A DNA stretch of 64,000 nt from Xanthobacter sp. YC-JY1 (GTDB lineage: Bacteria; Pseudomonadota; Alphaproteobacteria; Rhizobiales; Xanthobacteraceae). The notes beneath the pieces were generated by a model. It was not told the DNA's origin and did not search any database. It was given only the letters and a program-made list of their open reading frames with translations. The DNA is taken from positions 248,001 through 312,000 of the forward strand of contig NZ_CP032674.1 in the NCBI RefSeq assembly GCF_021730305.1, given 5' to 3'. Each line of letters starts with the position of its first letter. Position 1 is the stretch's first letter. The position numbers and the translations under genes were made by a program. Below are positions 4,013 through 18,338 of the stretch, piece by piece.

Positions 4013-4044
4013 AATTAATCAGTGTACTCCTATTAATGGAGTCC
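4013..4044. promoter_or_regulatory. operator-like repeat, copy 2, proximal to the 4130 gene
   Basis: This is the second copy of AATTAATCAGTGT, followed by ACTCC-TATTAAT-GGAGT, a 5-base inverted repeat. A TTGACG hexamer lies just upstream at 4003-4008, so the site probably overlaps the promoter of the small barrel-protein gene and the catabolic genes after it. Confidence 0.5.
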
Positions 4045-4129: not shown

Positions 4130-4498
4130 ATGGCTCAGGAGCCGCTTGCCACCAAGGGCAACTACCTTCACATCTACGACTTCACCATCAATCCCGGTGT
4201 GGAGGAAGAGTTCATCCGCGAGTTCGAGGACTTCGACTATTCGGATGGAAACCCCATGCACAAGTCGTGGGCGCAGGTGAAGGACGGCGTTCTGCTTCGT
4301 GATGAAGAAAATCCGCTGCGCTTCTATCTGATCGCCGAGTGGAAGGACATCGAGGAGCACGCCAAGATCCGCAAGATCCTGGCCGAGGAGATCAAGCCCT
4401 CCTTCATCCGCCACATCGTCGGCGGCAAGTTCGTGCCGCGCTACGCCAAGGTCGTGTCGTCCACGCCTGACGAAATCCTGGCCAAGGCCGCCGGCTGA
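4130..4498 (+). CDS. small dimeric alpha-beta barrel (ABM-like) protein
   Basis: The product has 122 residues with no signal peptide or membrane segment. The pattern NYLHIYDFTINPGVEEEF, then PMHKSWAQV, then RFYLIAEWKDIEEHAKIR resembles the antibiotic biosynthesis monooxygenase/DUF fold (dimeric alpha-beta barrel). These proteins are small enzymes or accessory proteins acting on aromatic or polyketide-like compounds. A good ribosome binding site (AAGGGAG) precedes the ATG. It is the first gene after the paired AATTAATCAGTGT motifs and lies before the isomerase and TRAP genes, so a role in the same aromatic pathway is likely. The reaction is unknown. Confidence 0.65.
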   Translation: MAQEPLATKGNYLHIYDFTINPGVEEEFIREFEDFDYSDGNPMHKSWAQVKDGVLLRDEENPLRFYLIAEWKDIEEHAKIRKILAEEIKPSFIRHIVGGKFVPRYAKVVSSTPDEILAKAAG

Positions 4499-4524: not shown

Positions 4525-4598
4525 TCTCTCCGGCGATGGCTCCGCGCCGTCGCCGTTCCTTGCGTGTGAAGAAAAAACAAAACTTCCAGAGTGCGCAG

Positions 4599-5234
4599 AT
4601 GGAACTCTACGGTTTCTTCCGGTCGTCCGCGTCCTACAGGGTGCGCATCGCGCTCGCCTTCAAGGGGCTGTCCGCGACGCCGCGCGCCGTCAGCCTGCCG
4701 AAGATGGAGCACAAGGCCGACGCCTTCGTGCGCCTCAATCCGCAGGGGCTGGTGCCGGCTCTGGTGGATGGCGCGCTGGTGCTCACCCAGTCGCTCGCCA
4801 TCATGGAATATCTGGAGGAGACGCAGCCCGAGCCTGCGCTGCTGCCGAAGGATCCCATCGAGCGGGCCTATGTCCGCGCCTTCAGCCAGGCCATCTGCTG
4901 CGACATCCATCCGCTCAACAATGTGCGTGTGCTCAAGCATCTCGACCGGCTCGGCCATGACGAGGCCGCGCGCAACGCCTGGTACGCCCACTGGATCGCG
5001 GAAGGCTTCCGCAGCCTCGAGGCGACGCTCGCGACGCGGGGCCTTGGCGGCCGGTTCGTGCTGGGGGATGCGCCCGGCATGGCGGACATCTGCCTCGTGC
5101 CGCAGGTGTTCAACGCCCAGCGCTTCAATTGCGACGTGACGCCCTATCCGCTGGTGATGGGCATTTACGAGAACTGCATGGCCCTCGATCGCTTCGAGGC
5201 CACGCACCCAAAGTATCTGTCTGACGTCGCTTAG
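4599..5234 (+). CDS. maleylpyruvate/maleylacetoacetate isomerase (zeta-class GST)
   Basis: The product has 211 residues. The N-terminal thioredoxin fold carries FFRSSASYRVRIALAF, the glutathione-activating Ser motif of zeta-class enzymes, then NPQGLVPAL and TQSLAIMEYLEE. The C-terminal half has the CDIHPLNN segment typical of maleylacetoacetate isomerase and glutathione-dependent maleylpyruvate isomerase (NagL type). The reaction is cis-trans isomerisation of maleyl to fumaryl intermediates after ring cleavage of gentisate or homogentisate. Together with the NagG/AndAc-like oxygenase and the fumarylpyruvate-hydrolase-like gene at 53411, the gentisate branch is the better guess. The open frame extends to 4536, but homology starts at the ATG at 4599. 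Confidence 0.85.
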   Translation: MELYGFFRSSASYRVRIALAFKGLSATPRAVSLPKMEHKADAFVRLNPQGLVPALVDGALVLTQSLAIMEYLEETQPEPALLPKDPIERAYVRAFSQAICCDIHPLNNVRVLKHLDRLGHDEAARNAWYAHWIAEGFRSLEATLATRGLGGRFVLGDAPGMADICLVPQVFNAQRFNCDVTPYPLVMGIYENCMALDRFEATHPKYLSDVA

Positions 5235-9072: not shown

Positions 9073-11475
9073 ATGTCCGTCGACCAGGACACTCGGGATC
9101 ATGAAACCCATCCCGCCGTCAGCGGCGAAGGCATCGGCGCCCGCGTCCGCCGCAAGGAGGATGCGCGCCACCTGATGGGCCGCGGCCGCTTCGCCGGCGA
9201 CATCCGCATGCCCGGCATGAGCGACGTCGCCTTCCTGCGCAGCCCGGTGGCCCACGCGCGCATTCTCTCCGTCACCAAGCCGCAGGGGCGGGAGGGGGAG
9301 GTGTTCACCTCGGCCGACTGCGCTGATGTCGCCGACATCATCACCCGCTCCACCATCCCCGGCTACAAGCTCTCCGCCCATCCGCCGCTGGCGCGCGACA
9401 AGGTGCGCTTTGTCGGCGACATCGTCGCCATGGCCTATGCGCCCACCCGCGCCGAGGCGGAAGACATCTGCGAAGCCACCCTCTTCGACTATGAGGAACT
9501 GCCCGCCATCGTCGATTGCGACAGCGGCCGCGCCCCCGGCGCCGCGCTTCTGCATGAGGCGTGGGGCGACAACCTGTTCCTTGAAACCAGTTTCGATTCC
9601 GGTGGCATCGAGGAGGTCGCCCGCACCGCCGCGGTGAAGGTGGAGAAGCGCTTCCGCACCGGCCGCCAGTGCATGCACCCGATGGAGGGCAAGGGGCTGG
9701 TGGCGTGGTGGGATTTCCAGAACGACACGCTGGTGGTGAACACCTCCACCCAGGTGCCGCACATGATCCGCGCCGGCCTTGCCGAGACGCTGGGCCTGCC
9801 GGAAGCGCAGATCCGCATCGCCCCGCCGGACGTGGGCGGCGGCTTCGGCTACAAGTGCCTGCTCCAGCCAGAGGAAGTGCTGGTGGCGTGGCTGGCGATG
9901 ACGCTGAAGCGGCCCTTCCGCTGGATCGAGGACCGACGCGAGCATCTCACCGCCGGTGCCAATGCCCGCGAGCATGAATATGTCATCACCGCCTATGCGG
10001 ACGCGCGCGGCAAGCTGCTCGCCCTCGATGCGGAAGTGGCGGTGAATGTGGGCGCCTATTCGGTGTGGCCCTTCACCGCGTGCCTGGAGGCGGCGCAGGC
10101 GGGCGGCAATCTGCCGGGGCCGTACATCTGGCCCCACTATCGCTGCAAGACCTTTTCGGTGGCCACCAACAAGCCGCCCTTCGCCCCCTATCGCGGCGTG
10201 GCGCGGCCGGGCGTGTGCTTCGCCATGGAGCTGACCATCGATGCGGTTGCCGCCGCCGTGGGCCGCGAGGCGGTGGACGTGCGGGCGGAGAACCTCGTGC
10301 CCGCCTCGGCAATGCCCTATCTGAACATCACCAAGAAATTCTACGACAGCGGCGACTATCCGGCCTCGCTCGCCACCGCCCGTGAGATGATCGGCTTCGA
10401 CGCCATCCGCGCCCGGCAGCAGGCGGGGGAAAAGGACGGCCGGCGCATCGGCGTCGGCTTCTCCACCTATACCGAGCAGTCCGCCCACGGCACCAAGGTG
10501 TTCGCCTCCTGGGGCACGCCGCTCGTGCCCGGCTACGAGCAGGCCACCATCCGCCTGAACCCGGACGGCAGCGCCGACGTGAAGGCGGGCATCCACACCA
10601 TCGGCCAGGGGCTTGAGACGACGCTGGCGCAGGTGGCGAGCGAGATCCTCACGCTGCCCATCGCGCAGATCCGCGTGACGCTGGGCGACACCGCGACCAC
10701 GCCCTTCTCCACCGGCGCCTATGCCTCGCGCGGCATGGTCATGGCCGGCGGGGCCGTCTCCAAGGCGGCGCAGAAGCTGGCGGAGAAGGTGAAGGCGCTG
10801 GCCGCCCACCTCATGCAATGCGCGGCCGAACAGGTGCGGTTCGAGGGCGGCGCCATCCACGGGCCAACCGGATCCGTGACCTTCTCCGAGATCGCCCGCG
10901 CCTGGTATCGCACCCCCGAGGTTCTGCCCGATGCAGTGGATACCGGCGGCCTGGAAGTGACCGAGGGCTACAAACCGGACGTGGACACGGGCCTCTTCTC
11001 CTACGCCACCCACGCCGCCCTCGTGGCCGTGGACGTGAAGACCGGCGCCACGGAAATCCTCGACTATGTGGTGGTGGAGGATTGCGGGCGCATGGTGAAC
11101 CCCATGATCGTCGAGGGGCAGGCCTATGGTGGCGTCGCCCAGGGAATCGGCACGGCGCTGTTCGAGGAAAGCACCTACGATTCCGAGGGCCAGCCGCTCG
11201 CTTCCACCCTCGTGGACTATCTGCTGCCCGGCCCCACCGAGCTGCCCAAGGTGCGCATCGCCCACACCGAGACGCTGTCGCCCTTCTCCGCCCACGGCAT
11301 CAAGGGCGTGGGAGAGGGCGGCGCCATCGCCCCGGCCGGCGCCATCGTGAACGCCATCAACGATGCGCTGAAGGGGCTCGGCGCCACCCTGTGCGAGATT
11401 CCCGCGACGCCGGAGCGGGTGCTCGCGGCCCTCGCCGAGGCGCGACGCACCACCTCCGGACGGAGCGCCGCATGA
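9073..11475 (+). CDS. molybdenum hydroxylase large subunit (xanthine dehydrogenase family)
   Basis: The 800-residue product has the aldehyde oxidase/xanthine dehydrogenase a/b hammerhead domain (about 20-140) followed by the molybdopterin-binding domain. GGGFGYKCLLQPEE, FAPYRGVARPG, TIGQGLETTLAQVASEIL and GVGEGGAIAPAGA are recognisable; the last carries the catalytic Glu748. The AYxCSFR loop of true CO dehydrogenase is absent, so despite CoxL-like annotation in databases it should hydroxylate an aromatic or heterocyclic compound or an aldehyde using water. It binds Mo-pterin (probably the cytosine dinucleotide form) in the cytoplasm. The next two genes overlap by four bases each and supply the FAD and iron-sulfur subunits. 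The substrate is unknown; N-heterocycles or aromatic acids fit the neighbourhood. Confidence 0.9.
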   Translation: MSVDQDTRDHETHPAVSGEGIGARVRRKEDARHLMGRGRFAGDIRMPGMSDVAFLRSPVAHARILSVTKPQGREGEVFTSADCADVADIITRSTIPGYKLSAHPPLARDKVRFVGDIVAMAYAPTRAEAEDICEATLFDYEELPAIVDCDSGRAPGAALLHEAWGDNLFLETSFDSGGIEEVARTAAVKVEKRFRTGRQCMHPMEGKGLVAWWDFQNDTLVVNTSTQVPHMIRAGLAETLGLPEAQIRIAPPDVGGGFGYKCLLQPEEVLVAWLAMTLKRPFRWIEDRREHLTAGANAREHEYVITAYADARGKLLALDAEVAVNVGAYSVWPFTACLEAAQAGGNLPGPYIWPHYRCKTFSVATNKPPFAPYRGVARPGVCFAMELTIDAVAAAVGREAVDVRAENLVPASAMPYLNITKKFYDSGDYPASLATAREMIGFDAIRARQQAGEKDGRRIGVGFSTYTEQSAHGTKVFASWGTPLVPGYEQATIRLNPDGSADVKAGIHTIGQGLETTLAQVASEILTLPIAQIRVTLGDTATTPFSTGAYASRGMVMAGGAVSKAAQKLAEKVKALAAHLMQCAAEQVRFEGGAIHGPTGSVTFSEIARAWYRTPEVLPDAVDTGGLEVTEGYKPDVDTGLFSYATHAALVAVDVKTGATEILDYVVVEDCGRMVNPMIVEGQAYGGVAQGIGTALFEESTYDSEGQPLASTLVDYLLPGPTELPKVRIAHTETLSPFSAHGIKGVGEGGAIAPAGAIVNAINDALKGLGATLCEIPATPERVLAALAEARRTTSGRSAA

Positions 11476-12293
11476 AGCCCGCCGCCTTCGACCTCACCCT
11501 CGCGACCTCCCTCGATCAGGCGCTCTCCGTGCTGGCAGGGGAGGGGACAAAGCTCGTCTCCGGCGGCTGCTCGCTGGGGCCGATGCTGAACCTGCGGCTG
11601 GCCCGCCCCGCCGCGCTCGTGGACCTGCGCCGCGTCAGCGAGCTGCGTACCCTTGAGGGCAGCGCGACCCATCTCGACATCGGCGCCGGCTGGACCCATG
11701 CGGAGATCGAGGACGGCGTGGTGCCGGACGTGACGGCCGGCCTCATGCGCCGCGTCGCGCACGGCATCGCCTATCGCGCGGTGCGCAATCGCGGGACCAT
11801 AGGGGGCAGCATCGCCCATGCGGACCCGGCGGCGGACTGGATCAGCACCATGACCGTGCTGGGCGCGACGCTCCTCATTCGCGGGCGCAGCGGCACGCGG
11901 GCCTGCGCCATGGCCGACTTCATGCTGGCGGCCTACACCACCACGCTGGGGGCGGACGAGATCATCACCGCCATCCGCGTGCCGGTGCTCTCCGCCGGGG
12001 CGAAGACGGGCTACCACAAGGTGTGCCGCAAGACCGGCGAGTTTGCCCAGGCCATCGGCGCCGTTGTGGTGGATGCCGAGCGGGGCCTCGTCCGGGTGGT
12101 GGCGGGCGCCGTGGAGGCGCCGCCGCTGGTGCTGGCCGGGGCCGGTGAACGCCTCAAGGCCGGGGACATTGCGGGGGCGCGCGCCGCCGCCCAGGACGAA
12201 ATCGAGGCCGTGCTGGCGGGCCATCCGGAGGCGTTCCGCGCGCTCCATCAGGTGGCCGTGGACCGCGCCTTCAGCGATGCGGGGCTCGCATGA
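11472..12293 (+). CDS. molybdenum hydroxylase FAD-binding subunit
   Basis: The product has 273 residues and matches the CoxM-like medium subunit. It has KLVSGGCSLGPMLNLRLARP for the first FAD-binding loop and AYRAVRNRGTIGGSIAHADPAADW for the second, then the CO-dehydrogenase flavoprotein C-terminal domain with TGYHKVCRKTGEFA. It passes electrons from the iron-sulfur subunit to NAD or another acceptor. The ATG overlaps the stop of the large-subunit gene as ATGA, and the gene's own stop overlaps the next start in the same way, so the three subunits are translationally coupled. Confidence 0.9.
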   Translation: MKPAAFDLTLATSLDQALSVLAGEGTKLVSGGCSLGPMLNLRLARPAALVDLRRVSELRTLEGSATHLDIGAGWTHAEIEDGVVPDVTAGLMRRVAHGIAYRAVRNRGTIGGSIAHADPAADWISTMTVLGATLLIRGRSGTRACAMADFMLAAYTTTLGADEIITAIRVPVLSAGAKTGYHKVCRKTGEFAQAIGAVVVDAERGLVRVVAGAVEAPPLVLAGAGERLKAGDIAGARAAAQDEIEAVLAGHPEAFRALHQVAVDRAFSDAGLA

Positions 12294-13417
12294 ACGCCAT
12301 CACCCTCACCGTCAACGGCCAGCGCCTGTCCCGTCAGGTAGAGCCGCGCACCCATCTCGCCGATTTCCTGCGCGAGGAACTGAACCTCACCGGCACGCAC
12401 CTCGGCTGCGAGCAGGGGGTGTGCGGCGCCTGCACCGTGCTCATCGACGGCAAGCCCCAGCGCTCCTGCATCGCCTCCGCCGCCGCCTGCGACGGGGCGG
12501 ACATCCGCACCATCGAGGGGTTCGATGCCGATCCGCTGATGGCGGAACTGCGCGAGGCCTTCTCCGCCCACCATGCCCTGCAATGCGGCTTCTGCACGCC
12601 AGGCATGCTCATCTCCTCGCGGGACATCGTGAGCCGCCTCGGCGAAAGCTCCGAGCGCACGGTGCGTGAGGAACTGAGCGGCAATCTCTGCCGCTGCACC
12701 GGCTATGTGGGCATCGTGAACGCCGTGTGCGCCGTCTCGGCCGGCAAGTCTCCGGCGGCGCAGGCGGAAGTGGTCGGCATCGCGGCGGCTGCCGCGCCCG
12801 CCCCGGTGGTCGCAGCGGCGTCCGCTGTGAAAGCGGCGTCGGCGCCGGCGGCGGTTGGTGCCGGCGGCAGCGAGATCCGCCAGAGCCTCACCGTGGATGC
12901 CGCGCCGGAGGTGGTCTGGCCGGCGCTGAAGGACATCCACCTCATCGCCCGCTGCCTGCCCGGTGCCGAGGTCACGGCCTTCGACGGGGAGCGGCTGGAG
13001 GGCCGCATGGTCGTCACCTTCGGCCCCATCAAGGCGGCCTTCGGCGGCGACGCGACGGTGGCCTTCGACGATGCCGCCCGCACCGGCCTCGTCAACGGCT
13101 CAGGTCGCGACACCGGCTCCGGCTCAAAAGCCCACGGCGAGATCGCCTTCGCCCTGAAGCCGGCCGGCACGGGCAGCGCCATCGACCTCTCCCTGCGCTA
13201 CCGCATCTCCGGCCCCCTCGCCCAGTTCTCGCGGGGGGCGCTGGTGCAGAACCTGGTCGCGCACCTGACAGGGGTGTTCGCCACCAATCTCGCCGCCGCC
13301 CTGAAGGGCGAGGCGCCGACCGCTCCGGCGGGGCTTTCGGCACTGGGCATTTTTAAAGTGGTGCTGGCAACGTGGGGTGAACGGGTGAAAACCTGGGTGA
13401 AACGCCCCCCGAACTGA
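12290..13417 (+). CDS. molybdenum hydroxylase 2Fe-2S subunit fused to CoxG-like SRPBCC domain
   Basis: The product has 375 residues in two parts. Residues 1-155 are a standard small subunit with a plant-type [2Fe-2S] cluster (Cys40, 45, 48, 60) and a second cluster (Cys99, 102, 134, 136; QCGFCTPGM and LCRCTGY). After an Ala/Pro-rich linker (about 160-195), residues 197-350 form a CoxG/SRPBCC-type domain (SLTVDAAPEVVWPALKDI, CLPGAEVTAFDG, MVVTFGPIKAAFGG). In CO dehydrogenase operons CoxG is a separate membrane-recruiting or maturation protein. The fusion ends with a hydrophobic then basic tail (FKVVLATWGERVKTWVK), which could attach the enzyme to the membrane. No internal start signal is seen at the linker, so the fusion seems genuine. 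Confidence 0.88.
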   Translation: MNAITLTVNGQRLSRQVEPRTHLADFLREELNLTGTHLGCEQGVCGACTVLIDGKPQRSCIASAAACDGADIRTIEGFDADPLMAELREAFSAHHALQCGFCTPGMLISSRDIVSRLGESSERTVREELSGNLCRCTGYVGIVNAVCAVSAGKSPAAQAEVVGIAAAAAPAPVVAAASAVKAASAPAAVGAGGSEIRQSLTVDAAPEVVWPALKDIHLIARCLPGAEVTAFDGERLEGRMVVTFGPIKAAFGGDATVAFDDAARTGLVNGSGRDTGSGSKAHGEIAFALKPAGTGSAIDLSLRYRISGPLAQFSRGALVQNLVAHLTGVFATNLAAALKGEAPTAPAGLSALGIFKVVLATWGERVKTWVKRPPN

Positions 13418-13443: not shown

Positions 13444-13479
13444 TTGTCGCCCGAAAATAGAAAGTATACTGATTAAATT
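13444..13479 (+). promoter_or_regulatory. candidate promoter/operator of the oxygenase operon
   Basis: AGTATACTGATTAAATT at 13463-13479 is, on the other strand, AATTTAATCAGTATACT. It matches the AATTAATCAGTGTACT motif at 4013 except for one inserted T and one substitution. Its AGTATACT core is a perfect 8-base palindrome. TATACT (13465-13470) could serve as a -10 box with TTGTCG at 13444, though the 15-base spacing is short. The site lies about 25 bases before the oxygenase ORF, whose ribosome site is GGGAGG. Confidence 0.5.
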
Positions 13480-13503: not shown

Positions 13504-16380
13504 ATGGGCTTCAGGAAGGTGGCGGAACTCGACGCGCTGCGCGACGGCGGCGTCACCGGCGTCGAGGTGGACGGTGTTCCTATCGCCTTGTTTCGTATGG
13601 GAAATGAGGTCCACGCCACCCACGGCATCTGCACCCACGCGCTGGCTTTCCTGAAGGACGGCTATGTGGAGGACGGCACCATCGAGTGCCCCCTCCACCA
13701 GGGCGTCTTCGACATCCGCACGGGCCGCGCTTTGTGCGCCCCCCTGACCCGAGACCTCGCCACCTACGCCGCCAAGGTGGAGGGCGGCGCGGTGCTCGTC
13801 GATCTCGACAGAGCCAGCGACAGCCCCGCTGCGGAGGGTGAGGCGGATGCCGACCAAGTGATTGAAATCAAAAGTGTCGAGCCACTTCCTCTGGTGATCG
13901 CCGGCGCTGGGCAGGCGGCGGCCGCTGCCATCCGCGCGGCCCGGGCGGCCGGCTTTTCCGCGCCGATCCACCTCGTCGGCGCCGAGCCGCATCTGCCCTA
14001 TGAACGGCCTCCGCTCTCCAAGGAAGCGCTGGGCGACGCCTTCGATCCCGCGTCCGCCTGCCGCCTCCCGCCCGCCGACGTGGCGGCGCTGGGCGTGACC
14101 TTCCATCCCGGCGTGCGTGTCGCCGCCGTCGATGCGGAGGGACGTATCGCAACCCTCTCGGATGGAACGGAAATTCCCTACGCCGCCCTCCTCATCGCCA
14201 CCGGTGGTGCGGCCCGGCGGCTCGGTGTTCCCGTCGACGATCTGCCCGGCGTGCATCACCTCAGAACTCTTGAGGATGCACAATCCATCGCCGCCTCCCT
14301 TGCATCCGCACGCACCGTTGCCGTGGTCGGCGGCGGCTTCATCGGGCTGGAGCTCGCCTCCGCAGCGCGTGCCCGCGGCCTTAAGGTGGTGCTGCTGGAG
14401 CGTGAGGACGAACTGATGTCGCGCCTCCTGCCGCCGGCCCTTGGCGCGGCCTTCCGCCGGCTCGCGCAAGCCAATGGCGTCGATGTCCGGCGCGATGTCG
14501 CGGTCGAGGCCATCACTGCGCGGGACGGGGCTCTGGCTCTCGCGACCACGGCGGGCGAAATCGTCGCTGACACTGTTCTGGTGGGCGTCGGCCTTGTGCC
14601 GGAGACCGAGCTTGCGGCCCTTGCCGGCTGCGAGGTGGCGGGCGGCATCGTGGTGGATTCTGCCGGCCGCACCTCCGTCGAGGGCATATGGGCGGCTGGC
14701 GATTGCGCGCTCCATCATGCGCCGCTCAACGGCCGGCGCGGGCGGCTCGAAAGCTGGCAGAATGCCGAGGAGCAGGGCGCCGCCGCCGGCCGCAGCATCG
14801 CCGGCGACGACACCATCCGCGCAGAGAAGGCGCCCTGGTTCTGGACTGACCAGTTCGGCCTCAATATCCAGATGCTGGGCGTGCCGGCCACCAGCGACGA
14901 GGTGGCCCTGAGCGGCACCGACGGCGCTGCCGGCGCTGTCTACCGCACCCTCGCGGACGGGCGCGTCACCGCCGTGATCGCTTTCTCTGATGCCGCCGCC
15001 ATCCGCGCCGCCCGCGCGGAATTGGCGTCCGACACCCCCTTCGACCTTGCCGCCCACGGCGCGCGTCTTCTTGCGCCGGGAGAATTCGAACCCACGCCGA
15101 TCGATCCCGAGGAGGACGACATGAGCGCGAGCCCCGACTTCCAGTTCGCCAAGAAATACGTATGGCCGCAGGAAGGCCTCTCCATCATCCCGGATTGGGT
15201 CTACACGGACGAGACCGTGTACCAGCGCGAGGTGGAGCGCATCTTCCACGGTCGCACATGGAATTTCGTCGCGCTGGAATGCGAGATCGAGAATCCCGGC
15301 GACTTCATCCGGTCCAATGTTGGCCCCACCCCCGTGGTGGTGGCCCGTGCGGAAGATGGGACGATCCACGTCTTCGAGAACCGCTGCGCCCATCGCGCGG
15401 CCGAGTTCTGCCGGGATTTGTCGGGCAATGCGAAGGAGTTCGTCTGCCCCTATCACCAGTGGTCCTACGACCTGAAGGGCAACCTCGTGGGCGTGCCCTT
15501 CCGCCGTGGGGTGGACGGCAAGGGCGGCATGCCGAAGGACTTCAAGCCGGCCGACCATGGCCTGAAGCAGCTTCACGTCACCACCCATCGCGGCGTCGTC
15601 TTCGCCTCCTATGCGGACGGCATGGAGAGCTTCCCGGACTATCTCGGCCCCGAGGTGCTGCGCGAGTTCGAGGCCACCTTCGACGGCCGCAAGCCCAAGT
15701 TGCTCGGCCATTACCGCCATAGCCTGCCGGGCAACTGGAAGCTCTATCACGAGAACCTCAAGGACCCCTATCACGCGACCCTTCTGCACACCTTCCTGGT
15801 CACGTTCGGCCTGCTGGTGGCGGGCAACAAGTCGCTGATGCTGGCGGACCCTTCCGGCCGGCACGGGGTGATGGCCTCCGCCAAGTCGGACACCACCCAT
15901 ATCGACGCCGACAAGAAGAAGGAAATGCGCGCCTACAAGGAGGGAATGACCCTCGAGGAGCCGCGCTTCATGGACTTCATCGACGAGTTCGACAGTCCCT
16001 GGTCCGTCACCATGGCGACCATCTGGCCGAACCTCATCGTGCAGCGGGAGATGAACACGCTGGGCATCCGCCATATCGTGCCGACCGGTCCGAACGAGTT
16101 CATCATGAAATGGACCATGTTCGGCTTCGAAGGGGACGACGAGGAGATGACCCGCCATCGCCTGCGCCAGGGCAACCTCATGGGGCCGGCCGGCTTCCTT
16201 GGGCTGGAGGACAACGAGGCCATCAAGTTTGTGCAGGATGGCATGCTCGGCGTGCCGGGCGGCGAGCATCTCGTAAAGCTCGATCCCGGCACCGAGGCGG
16301 GCACCGCCGATACGCTCATTTCGGAAGCGGCCATCCGTGCCATGTACCGCCACTGGCGCGACGCCATGGGCATCGCCTGA
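13504..16380 (+). CDS. Rieske ferredoxin-ferredoxin reductase-oxygenase alpha subunit in one frame
   Basis: This single frame of 958 codons joins three proteins that are normally separate. Residues 1-105 are a Rieske ferredoxin (Cys43/His45 and Cys62/His65). Residues about 125-530 are an FAD/NADH ferredoxin reductase (VIAGAGQAAAAA, YERPPLSKE, VVGGGFIGLELA, VEGIWAAGDCA). Residues 540-958 are a ring-hydroxylating oxygenase alpha subunit; counted from Met540 its Rieske ligands are Cys89, His91, Cys109, His112 and the mononuclear iron site is Asp215/His218/His223 (KDPYHATLLH). The alpha part resembles salicylate 5-hydroxylase NagG and anthranilate dioxygenase AndAc. The junction at codon 540 has a strong Shine-Dalgarno sequence 5 bases before an ATG (15121), with no stop before it. 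Both a full-length fusion and a free alpha subunit are therefore possible. The beta subunit gene follows. Confidence 0.88.
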   Translation: MGFRKVAELDALRDGGVTGVEVDGVPIALFRMGNEVHATHGICTHALAFLKDGYVEDGTIECPLHQGVFDIRTGRALCAPLTRDLATYAAKVEGGAVLVDLDRASDSPAAEGEADADQVIEIKSVEPLPLVIAGAGQAAAAAIRAARAAGFSAPIHLVGAEPHLPYERPPLSKEALGDAFDPASACRLPPADVAALGVTFHPGVRVAAVDAEGRIATLSDGTEIPYAALLIATGGAARRLGVPVDDLPGVHHLRTLEDAQSIAASLASARTVAVVGGGFIGLELASAARARGLKVVLLEREDELMSRLLPPALGAAFRRLAQANGVDVRRDVAVEAITARDGALALATTAGEIVADTVLVGVGLVPETELAALAGCEVAGGIVVDSAGRTSVEGIWAAGDCALHHAPLNGRRGRLESWQNAEEQGAAAGRSIAGDDTIRAEKAPWFWTDQFGLNIQMLGVPATSDEVALSGTDGAAGAVYRTLADGRVTAVIAFSDAAAIRAARAELASDTPFDLAAHGARLLAPGEFEPTPIDPEEDDMSASPDFQFAKKYVWPQEGLSIIPDWVYTDETVYQREVERIFHGRTWNFVALECEIENPGDFIRSNVGPTPVVVARAEDGTIHVFENRCAHRAAEFCRDLSGNAKEFVCPYHQWSYDLKGNLVGVPFRRGVDGKGGMPKDFKPADHGLKQLHVTTHRGVVFASYADGMESFPDYLGPEVLREFEATFDGRKPKLLGHYRHSLPGNWKLYHENLKDPYHATLLHTFLVTFGLLVAGNKSLMLADPSGRHGVMASAKSDTTHIDADKKKEMRAYKEGMTLEEPRFMDFIDEFDSPWSVTMATIWPNLIVQREMNTLGIRHIVPTGPNEFIMKWTMFGFEGDDEEMTRHRLRQGNLMGPAGFLGLEDNEAIKFVQDGMLGVPGGEHLVKLDPGTEAGTADTLISEAAIRAMYRHWRDAMGIA
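15109..15123 (+). promoter_or_regulatory. internal ribosome binding site and ATG for a free alpha subunit
   Basis: GAGGAGG at 15109-15115 lies five bases before an in-frame ATG at 15121. The downstream 419 codons form a complete oxygenase alpha subunit with the normal N-terminus length. The upstream reductase part has its usual length by this point, so this looks like an old gene boundary that lost its stop codon but kept its start signals. Confidence 0.6.
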
Positions 16381-16392
16381 GGAGGTGCGAAC

Positions 16393-16914
16393 ATGCTGAA
16401 CCCTGCAAGCGCCAACGCGCCTTCCCGTGACGATCTTATCGATGCGCTGCTGCTGAAGGCCGAGGTGGAGGCCTTCAACGAGGCCTATGCCTCCGCGCTC
16501 GACGAGCAGCGCCTCGCGGACTGGGCCGAGATGTTCACCGTCAATGGCTTCTACAACATCATCTCGCGCGAGAACTACGACCGGAAGCTGCCGGTGGGCC
16601 TCATCTATTGCGAGAACCGCGGCATGATCCGCGACCGCGCCTTCGCGCTGGAAAAGACCGCCATGTTCGCGCCGCGCTACCTGCGGCACATGGTCGGCAA
16701 CATCAAGGTCGCGGAGGCCGCGGACGGCAGCATCGATGCCACGGCGAACTACGTGGTGTTCCAGGTGCTGTTCGACCGGCCGGATGCGACCATCCATCAG
16801 GTGGGGCGCTACATCGACCGCTTCGTGCGGGAGGAGGGGGGCCTCAAGCTCGCCTCGCGCATCTGCATCTATGACAGCCTGCTCATCGACAACGCCTTGT
16901 GCATCCCGGTGTGA
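16393..16914 (+). CDS. ring-hydroxylating oxygenase beta subunit
   Basis: The product has 173 residues and the NTF2-like fold of oxygenase small subunits. LLLKAEVEAFNEAYASALDE at the N-terminus, the WAEMFTVNGFYNIISREN segment, and RDRAFALEKTAMFAPRYLRHMVGNIKV are family features. It is a structural partner of the alpha subunit in an (alpha-beta)3 assembly and carries no metal. The sequence pattern is closer to NagH/AndAd-type small subunits (salicylate or anthranilate substrates) than to biphenyl-type subunits. It lies 12 bases after the alpha stop codon, preceded by GAGGAGGTG, so it is in the same operon. Confidence 0.88.
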   Translation: MLNPASANAPSRDDLIDALLLKAEVEAFNEAYASALDEQRLADWAEMFTVNGFYNIISRENYDRKLPVGLIYCENRGMIRDRAFALEKTAMFAPRYLRHMVGNIKVAEAADGSIDATANYVVFQVLFDRPDATIHQVGRYIDRFVREEGGLKLASRICIYDSLLIDNALCIPV

Positions 16915-16916
16915 GC

Positions 16917-18338
16917 ATGGAACGGAACCGGGGAGAAGGCGAAGTCGTGCGCCTTGCTGCAGCTCATTCGGCCGGCACGCGGCGGGTGACGGAAACCGTG
17001 GAAGGGGCGCTGGCACGTGCGGAGGCGGCCCAGGCGGGCTTCAACTGCTTCGCCGCCATTGATGGCGCTGGGGCCCGCGCCGCTGCGGCGGATATGGACG
17101 CCCGCATCGCTGCTGGACAGGTGCCGGGGCCGCTCACCGGTGTGCCGGTCTCGGTCAAGGACATCCTGGACTGTGCCGGCCTGCCGACACGCTGGGGCTC
17201 GCTGCTGTTCGCCGAGGCGCAGCCCGCGGCCTCGGACATCGCGGCCGTGTCGCGGCTCAGGGCGGCCGGCGCCATCATCATCGGCAAGACGACGACGACG
17301 GAATTTGCCCATTCGCCAATCGGCTCGTCGCCCCTGACTGGACTGACGCTCAACCCCTTCGCGTCGGGGCTGACCTGCGGTGGCTCCTCCTCCGGCGCCG
17401 GGACGAGCGTCGCTCTGGGGGTGACGCCTGTATCGCTCGCCACCGATGCCGGCTGCTCCAGCCGCCTGCCGGCCGCCGCGACGGGGACCTATGGCTTCAA
17501 GCCCACCCTCGGCCTCGTGCCCCACGAGCGGGTGCCGGATGCGTTCGGCAGCTTCATCCATCTCGGGCTGATCGCCCGCAGCGTGGCCGACATCGCGGCG
17601 ACGCTGCCGGTGATCGCAGGACCGTCGCCGGCTGACCCCTGGAGTCTGCGGGCGCCGCCACTCGCCCCGGCCGCGGCAGGTCTGGAGGGCTCCCGCGTGC
17701 TCCTGTGGATGCGCGCCGGCAATGCCCGCGTCTCGCGCGAGGTCGAGGCCGCGACCCGGGTGGCGGCGCAGGCGCTGGAGCGTCTCGGCGCAGAGGTGGT
17801 CGAGGAGGACTACGCCCTCGCCGCGCCCGATCCGATCTGGAGCACCCTGCAGCAGACCAACTGGGCGCTGCGTTTCGCCTCGACCTCCGCAGACGATTTC
17901 GCGCGGCTGTCGCCGGCGTTGCGGGCCGGGATCGAGGCCGCGCGGGGCTTCAGCGCGCTCGATCTGATGCGGGCGCAGGTGGCCCGTGCCCAGTTGTTCC
18001 GGGGCGTTCAGGCGAAGTTCGCGCAGTACGACTTCATCCTGACCCCCTGCCTGTCAGCCCCGCTGGTGGCGGCGGACTTCGACCTTTCGGAGCCGCTGGT
18101 GATCGACGGCGAGGCGGTCGGTCCGCTTCGGGCGGAATGGACATCGGCCCTGTCCCTGTTCGACCTGTCCGGCCACCCCGCGCTCGCCGTTCCCGTCGGG
18201 CTTGCGGAAAATGGCGGTCCGCTCGCCGTCCAACTGGTGGGACGGTGGAACGCCGACATGGCGCTGCTTTCGGCTGCTGCGGGACTTGCGGCTCAGATCC
18301 CCGCTCCGGTCTGTCCCGCCGCGGCGCTTTCCGTCTGA
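16917..18338 (+). CDS. amidase signature family hydrolase
   Basis: The product has 473 residues from the ATG at 16917 (a GTG at 16899 is a possible earlier start). The catalytic triad of the amidase signature family is complete: Lys81 in SVKDILD, cis-Ser157 in CGGSSSGAG and nucleophile Ser181 in TDAGCSSR, with the usual 24-residue spacing between the two serines. The usual TDTGGSIR reads TDAGCSSR, a mild variant. It should hydrolyse an amide to acid and ammonia, or act as a related esterase. It begins two bases after the beta-subunit stop, so it belongs to the oxygenase operon. It may release an aromatic acid such as salicylate or anthranilate from an amide for the oxygenase; that link is inference. 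Confidence 0.87.
   Translation: MERNRGEGEVVRLAAAHSAGTRRVTETVEGALARAEAAQAGFNCFAAIDGAGARAAAADMDARIAAGQVPGPLTGVPVSVKDILDCAGLPTRWGSLLFAEAQPAASDIAAVSRLRAAGAIIIGKTTTTEFAHSPIGSSPLTGLTLNPFASGLTCGGSSSGAGTSVALGVTPVSLATDAGCSSRLPAAATGTYGFKPTLGLVPHERVPDAFGSFIHLGLIARSVADIAATLPVIAGPSPADPWSLRAPPLAPAAAGLEGSRVLLWMRAGNARVSREVEAATRVAAQALERLGAEVVEEDYALAAPDPIWSTLQQTNWALRFASTSADDFARLSPALRAGIEAARGFSALDLMRAQVARAQLFRGVQAKFAQYDFILTPCLSAPLVAADFDLSEPLVIDGEAVGPLRAEWTSALSLFDLSGHPALAVPVGLAENGGPLAVQLVGRWNADMALLSAAAGLAAQIPAPVCPAAALSV

Follow-up and report, generated by a model that had tools for sequence, protein, structure and literature searches.

An old and widespread fusion of Rieske ferredoxin, ferredoxin reductase and oxygenase alpha subunit, with a conserved start signal for a predicted free alpha

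The window, by which we mean the whole 64,000-nt stretch analysed here, belongs to a genome made up of a single contig (5.39 Mb) and carries one open reading frame in which a Rieske ferredoxin, a ferredoxin reductase and the alpha subunit of a Rieske oxygenase follow one another (FRA). The gene for the beta subunit is separate. The features referred to in the text are the following.

4017..4036, plus strand: second copy of the operator-like motif, before the ABM-like ORF
4536..5234, plus strand: maleylacetoacetate-isomerase-like (MaiA-like) GST; TIGR01262 255 bits, cut-off 171
9073..11475, plus strand: molybdenum hydroxylase large subunit
11472..12293, plus strand: molybdenum hydroxylase FAD subunit; start set from the counterpart at L021 3969-4790
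12290..13417, plus strand: molybdenum hydroxylase 2Fe-2S subunit; the ORF also encodes a CoxG-type domain
13455..13474, minus strand: operator-like motif AATCAGTATACT, upstream of the fusion
13504..16380, plus strand: fused gene FRA; 958 aa, ATG start, no internal stop
13504..13815, plus strand: Rieske ferredoxin domain, about residues 1-104; Pfam Rieske 6-88, AndAb model 4-100 (below cut-off)
13816..13881, plus strand: linker 1 (ferredoxin-reductase); internal start not above background
13882..15051, plus strand: GR-type FAD/NADH ferredoxin reductase domain, about residues 127-516; Pfam, sequence and fold matches
15052..15120, plus strand: linker 2 (reductase-alpha); length varies, in frame in 34/34 fusions compared
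15110..15123, plus strand: internal Shine-Dalgarno (SD) AGGAGG at 15110-15115 and ATG at 15121, candidate start of a 419-aa free alpha
15121..16377, plus strand: oxygenase alpha domain (Rieske cluster and mononuclear iron), residues 540-958
16069..16071, plus strand: codon of Arg856 (Arg317 of alpha), aligning with NagG R323 and TPADO R309
16393..16914, plus strand: oxygenase beta subunit, 173 aa, separate gene
16899..18338, plus strand: amidase; ORF start, true start may differ

A reading made earlier from this sequence alone (the sequence-only reading) had placed ferredoxin, reductase and alpha in one 958-codon frame with all cofactor motifs intact, and both statements hold. Pfam places Rieske domains in two stretches of the product, Pyr_redox_2 at residues 130-425, Reductase_C at 445-516 and Ring_hydroxyl_A at 738-956, and the reductase domain resembles BphA4, TodA and putidaredoxin reductase both by sequence and by fold. 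Across 32 aligned fusions the Rieske ligands of the ferredoxin (C43/H45/C62/H65) and of alpha (C628/H630/C648/H651), the glycines of the FAD and NAD sites (G134/G136 and G276/G278) and the iron-site region (D754/H757/H762 and D903, whose individual roles at the iron site we presume) are invariant. With a Rieske ferredoxin CxH...CxxH motif, a GR-type reductase bearing Reductase_C, the alpha ligands and a beta subunit, the locus has the make-up of a three-component Rieske oxygenase with GR-type reductase and Rieske ferredoxin, which we take to be the class named IIB, except that the parts which should be separate polypeptides lie in one frame. The ATG at 13504 has GGGAGG upstream of it, and a 1272-aa antisense ORF overlaps the fused gene. 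Because the DNA is GC-rich, a long open frame is by itself weak evidence, and the case for the fusion is built on homologues.

The proposal that the same fusion be sought in related genomes proved fruitful, for it was found at 59 of 122 related loci, a set that includes duplicates (the same gene from two collections). A further 30 of these loci have three separate genes, 11 have ferredoxin and alpha in one frame without a reductase (FA), and 22 have an alpha with neither of them found upstream; the loci were collected using the fusion as query, and the in-frame state belongs to the definition of the FRA class. None of the 122 shows a fusion of just two adjacent parts with the remaining one next to them. 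Full-length matches in one frame were obtained from 4 of 14 genomes of the same genus (82-100% identity), from 16 of 391 sampled in the family and from 6 of 385 sampled in the class, the window's own genome being counted each time; the relative with 94% identity is Xanthobacter aminoxidans. The contig scan gave 198 matching stretches, of which 175 encode a relative, and the best 80 of those 175 were kept. As judged from these homologues, the fusion is old and widespread, spanning several other genera besides Xanthobacter. A reductase-alpha fusion in Caballeronia SBC2 was apparent only, since reading the genes showed them to be separate. The FA fusions L067, L068, L069, L070, L074 and L079 come from alphaproteobacterial MAGs, from soil judging by their names. 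The record of locus L047 is titled Mesoflavibacter (Bacteroidota), and its fusion groups with that of the alphaproteobacterial L105; it is perhaps a mislabelled MAG.

In a midpoint-rooted tree of 77 alphas, which has several long outer branches, a single clade (support 100/98) unites 33 FRA, 5 FA and 7 lone alphas, and the 19 separate-gene rows lie outside it. The plain reading of this topology is a single origin of the fusion, after which either the reductase alone or both arms were lost. FA rows stand in three places within the clade (L068 was removed from the tree as near-identical), and the FA label takes three changes on the tree or, alternatively, one gain and two losses. No reductase match was found in the fetched DNA of 15 FA or lone-alpha loci, several with short flanks, and none of the 45 rows of the clade is re-split, some flanks again being short.

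The stretch between reductase and alpha was compared in 34 fusions, all less than 90% identical to each other but related. It takes 14 different lengths (45-82 residues between measured columns), every one of them in frame, and column identity at residues 521-540 is 0.26. Over 19 disjoint pairs, dN/dS was 0.12 for the ferredoxin, 0.47 for linker 1, 0.16 for the reductase, 0.315 for linker 2, 0.40 for the alpha tail (residues 540-552) and 0.04 for alpha. The 14 in-frame lengths of linker 2, together with its dN/dS of about 0.32, argue that the fused frame is translated, and these comparisons indicate that the frame is under selection.

At codon 540 the sequence-only reading had noted a strong ribosome site and an ATG, and so it proved: AGGAGG stands 5 nt ahead of the ATG at 15121 with an SD dG of -11.8, the best among the internal ATGs of the fused gene, the 19 others in frame having a median of -2.9 and none matching it. 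The fusions were scored as having a start where SD dG was -6 or lower at most 30 codons before the alpha anchor, a threshold chosen after the value of the window gene was already known. SD and ATG are found at the alpha junction of 28 of the 34 fusions, against 64 of 853 same-size windows elsewhere in those frames; with GTG admitted as well as ATG, the counts are 33/34 and 156/853. The alpha junction differs from background with p 1e-19. The ferredoxin-reductase junction, which is a gene border in split operons, passes in 5/34 and cannot be told from background (p 0.19), the paired comparison of the two junctions giving p 7e-7. Among the 28 genes with ATG, the alpha ATG ranks top by SD in 19, where 1.3 would be expected, and the SD cores before alpha fall in all three codon phases (7/13/13). 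The start region of alpha is also less folded than that of other internal ATGs (-12.0 vs -18.4 kcal/mol) and less folded than the control junction, which may in part reflect base composition (GC 0.60 vs 0.67).

The signal is not uniform. Five of the 33 passing starts are GTG, a class that raises the background strongly (to the 156/853 given above), and that of L105 is doubtful because it lies 28 codons before the anchor, within the end of the reductase. L047, the sister of L105, fails the test, and the Paracoccus fusion L139, which lies outside the 34, has an ATG with an SD dG of -5.9, just under the threshold. FA fusions, which have lost the reductase on the reading given above, pass in 2 of 6 cases, 1 with ATG (Fisher p 0.0008, on related sequences). 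When the seven codons before the start were recoded synonymously, an SD of equal strength arose with a median p of 0.25 (below 0.05 in 2/34), so that much of the internal SD stems from the linker peptide; the signal is carried by peptide and start codon jointly, not by codon choice alone. At L139 13489-14736 (plasmid NZ_CP067132.1), the listed alpha CDS has the internal ATG as its first codon, although the fused frame stays open ahead of it. The gene table of this plasmid lists no CDS there, but it is known to have gaps.

How the fused frame is used can be read in several ways. A sequencing or assembly error joining separate genes, of the kind the sequence-only reading had named as its possible undoing (a missed stop or frameshift near 15090-15120), has practically no chance of being right, for the same frame recurs in four same-genus genomes and in many others, and the homologues refute it. 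It is very improbable, too, that the open frame is an incidental stop loss with no role, reductase and alpha working as separate chains through cleavage or separate starts. Lone alphas and FA forms do lie inside the clade, and because they do, the fused reductase must be dispensable in some lineages; yet the frame has been held through 14 linker lengths, the linker has a dN/dS of 0.32, and 0 of 45 rows have re-split. We consider it unlikely that the full-length fusion is the sole product and that a glutamate-rich linker and a former gene start have left the internal SD and ATG as a by-product. Such a by-product would fit the ease with which a similar SD arises on synonymous recoding, as well as the doubtful GTG cases and the failing L047 and L139, but it leaves unexplained why SD and ATG persist in 28/34 fusions against 64/853, in three phases and despite a linker identity of 0.26, and why the ferredoxin-reductase border keeps no signal above background.

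We therefore prefer, as probable, the interpretation that the locus encodes a natural self-sufficient Rieske oxygenase together with a co-made free alpha, giving alpha3-beta3 hexamers with a variable number of tethered arms. That the cell might make both a full-length fusion and a free alpha had been suggested at the outset, and the suggestion gains support from a candidate start kept in 33/34 fusions (28 with ATG). Our working hypothesis is that NADH would reduce the FAD of the reductase domain, and that the Rieske ferredoxin domain, tethered by two flexible linkers, would pass single electrons to the Rieske cluster of alpha, at whose iron site an aryl or pyridine carboxylate would be hydroxylated. 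Initiation at the internal ATG would in addition yield free alpha; fusion, free alpha and beta would then assemble into alpha3-beta3 hexamers in which part of the alphas bear an arm. We infer such mixed hexamers, with both products and their stoichiometry, and the sharing of one arm among several active sites of a hexamer is an idea that would follow from them. On balance we lean towards a programmed internal initiation, by which one gene would give two products and translation would set the number of arms per hexamer, the start having decayed after loss of the reductase. In an AlphaFold model from 32 fusions (mean pLDDT 69.2, pTM 0.50), confidence is good for the greater part of the reductase and for some of the ferredoxin, and poor across much of alpha. 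The pLDDT falls below 50 at residues 107-126 (linker 1) and 527-569 (linker 2); the model fits flexible tethers and has no bearing on docking.

Among solved structures the nearest alpha is that of NagG/NagH salicylate 5-hydroxylase (PDB 7c8z, E 6.5e-123), whose beta matches too. NagG/NagH is served by separate electron-transfer proteins. The anthranilate 1,2-dioxygenase AndA has the same kinds of component as the fusion, but its genes are separate, and membership of AndA was rejected with all components under the curated cut-offs: 398 bits against 750 for the AndAc NCBIfam equivalog, then 287/650, 115.5/150 and, for beta, 141/230 bits. The presence of MarR, amidase and oxygenase prompted a comparison with the indole-3-acetate (iad) locus, as described in the available parts of PMC9613470 and PMC12633357; this was rejected because IadD (PDB 9o71) is a distant match to alpha, the best stretch covering residues 27-224 alone (E 3.4e-32). 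By gene context the nearest relatives are hydroxypicolinate oxygenases of the PicB type, NagG and AndAc being more distant. PicB1B2B3B4, which we infer to be ferredoxin, reductase, alpha and beta, is the 6-hydroxypicolinate 3-monooxygenase of the pic clusters of Alcaligenes faecalis JQ135 and Bordetella bronchiseptica RB50 (PMC10142695, in the part available), and its alpha shares the active-site arginine, Arg856 here (PMC9060491, excerpted). The window enzyme, likened to PicB through gene context and the published description, differs in being fused. Of the earlier proposal of a new layout for the NagG/AndAc-type group, the one-chain layout thus stands, as old, widespread and with a frame under selection, whereas the fusion is not peculiar to the window genome and the PicB type is nearer by context than NagG/AndAc.

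By alignment, Arg856 of alpha is the carboxylate-binding arginine characteristic of aryl-carboxylate Rieske oxygenases, and it is invariant in 32 fusions. The accessible text of PMC9060491 gives this active-site arginine as shared by NagG, TphA2, AndAc and the alpha of the pic hydroxypicolinate 3-monooxygenase, and describes R309 of TPADO and R323 of NagG as binding the substrate carboxylate. Given this arginine, an aryl or pyridine carboxylate is the probable substrate. For many of the relatives the surrounding genes suggest hydroxypicolinate; they do so less clearly for the window gene, for which it is a first guess. Within the fetched flanks, 18 of the 29 split loci and 12 of the 38 fused ones show at least one PicC/D/E/F/G-like neighbour, and 16/29 and 11/38 show at least two; the roles of the pic genes are those given in the portion of PMC10142695 at hand. 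A broad set of annotated pic-like neighbours surrounds the fusion on the Paracoccus seriniphilus plasmid (L139). The 348-residue protein among the pic-like neighbours is presumably PicD, from its position and from its name in L139, leucyl aminopeptidase. The 64-kb window holds no PicC-G, though a molybdenum hydroxylase, TRAP and MarR are present in it. With PicD as query at E 1e-15, 5 of 10 genomes match, the genome that holds the window (G000) giving no match, and of four Xanthobacter genomes G011 alone matches, partially and weakly; a PicC-like protein (at 50%) is encoded elsewhere in G000, outside the window.

Other neighbours recur as well. In the subgroup of the window the amidase family adjoins 12/38 fusions and the MaiA-like GST family 13/38, and an ABM-like small protein is found near 17/38. 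The ABM-like family occurs in 27 of the 81 contexts compared (17 FRA, 6 lone alpha, 3 FA and the window), often beside the MaiA-like GST, and perhaps belongs to another lower pathway. In the window itself, a 122-aa ORF at 4130-4498 gives a sub-threshold ABM match. The operator-like motif ATCAGTRTACT has two exact copies in the window, a count reached by 1 of 100 shuffles, and the two are perhaps sites of a shared regulator.

Self-sufficient P450s (BM3 and CYP116B, including CYP116B46), as far as the extracts available describe them, are like the fusion in joining reductase and oxygenase in a natural single chain. They are haem enzymes with a fold unrelated to that of Rieske oxygenases. For the latter, the accessible part of a 2025 review (PMC12445004) states that no self-sufficient enzyme has been identified and describes artificial fusions as weakened in both activity and coupling, and our literature search, confined to related Rieske oxygenase families and to partial texts, found no natural fusion. 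The fused Rieske oxygenase is, on the evidence of its homologues, genuine, old and widespread, with a kept start signal for a predicted free alpha. Rieske oxygenases are wanted as biocatalysts, a use hampered by their separate redox partners. An old, widespread natural fusion family would offer evolution-tested linkers and reductase-free natural variants for comparison, and with it one could test directly if the number of electron arms on each trimer is set by translation.
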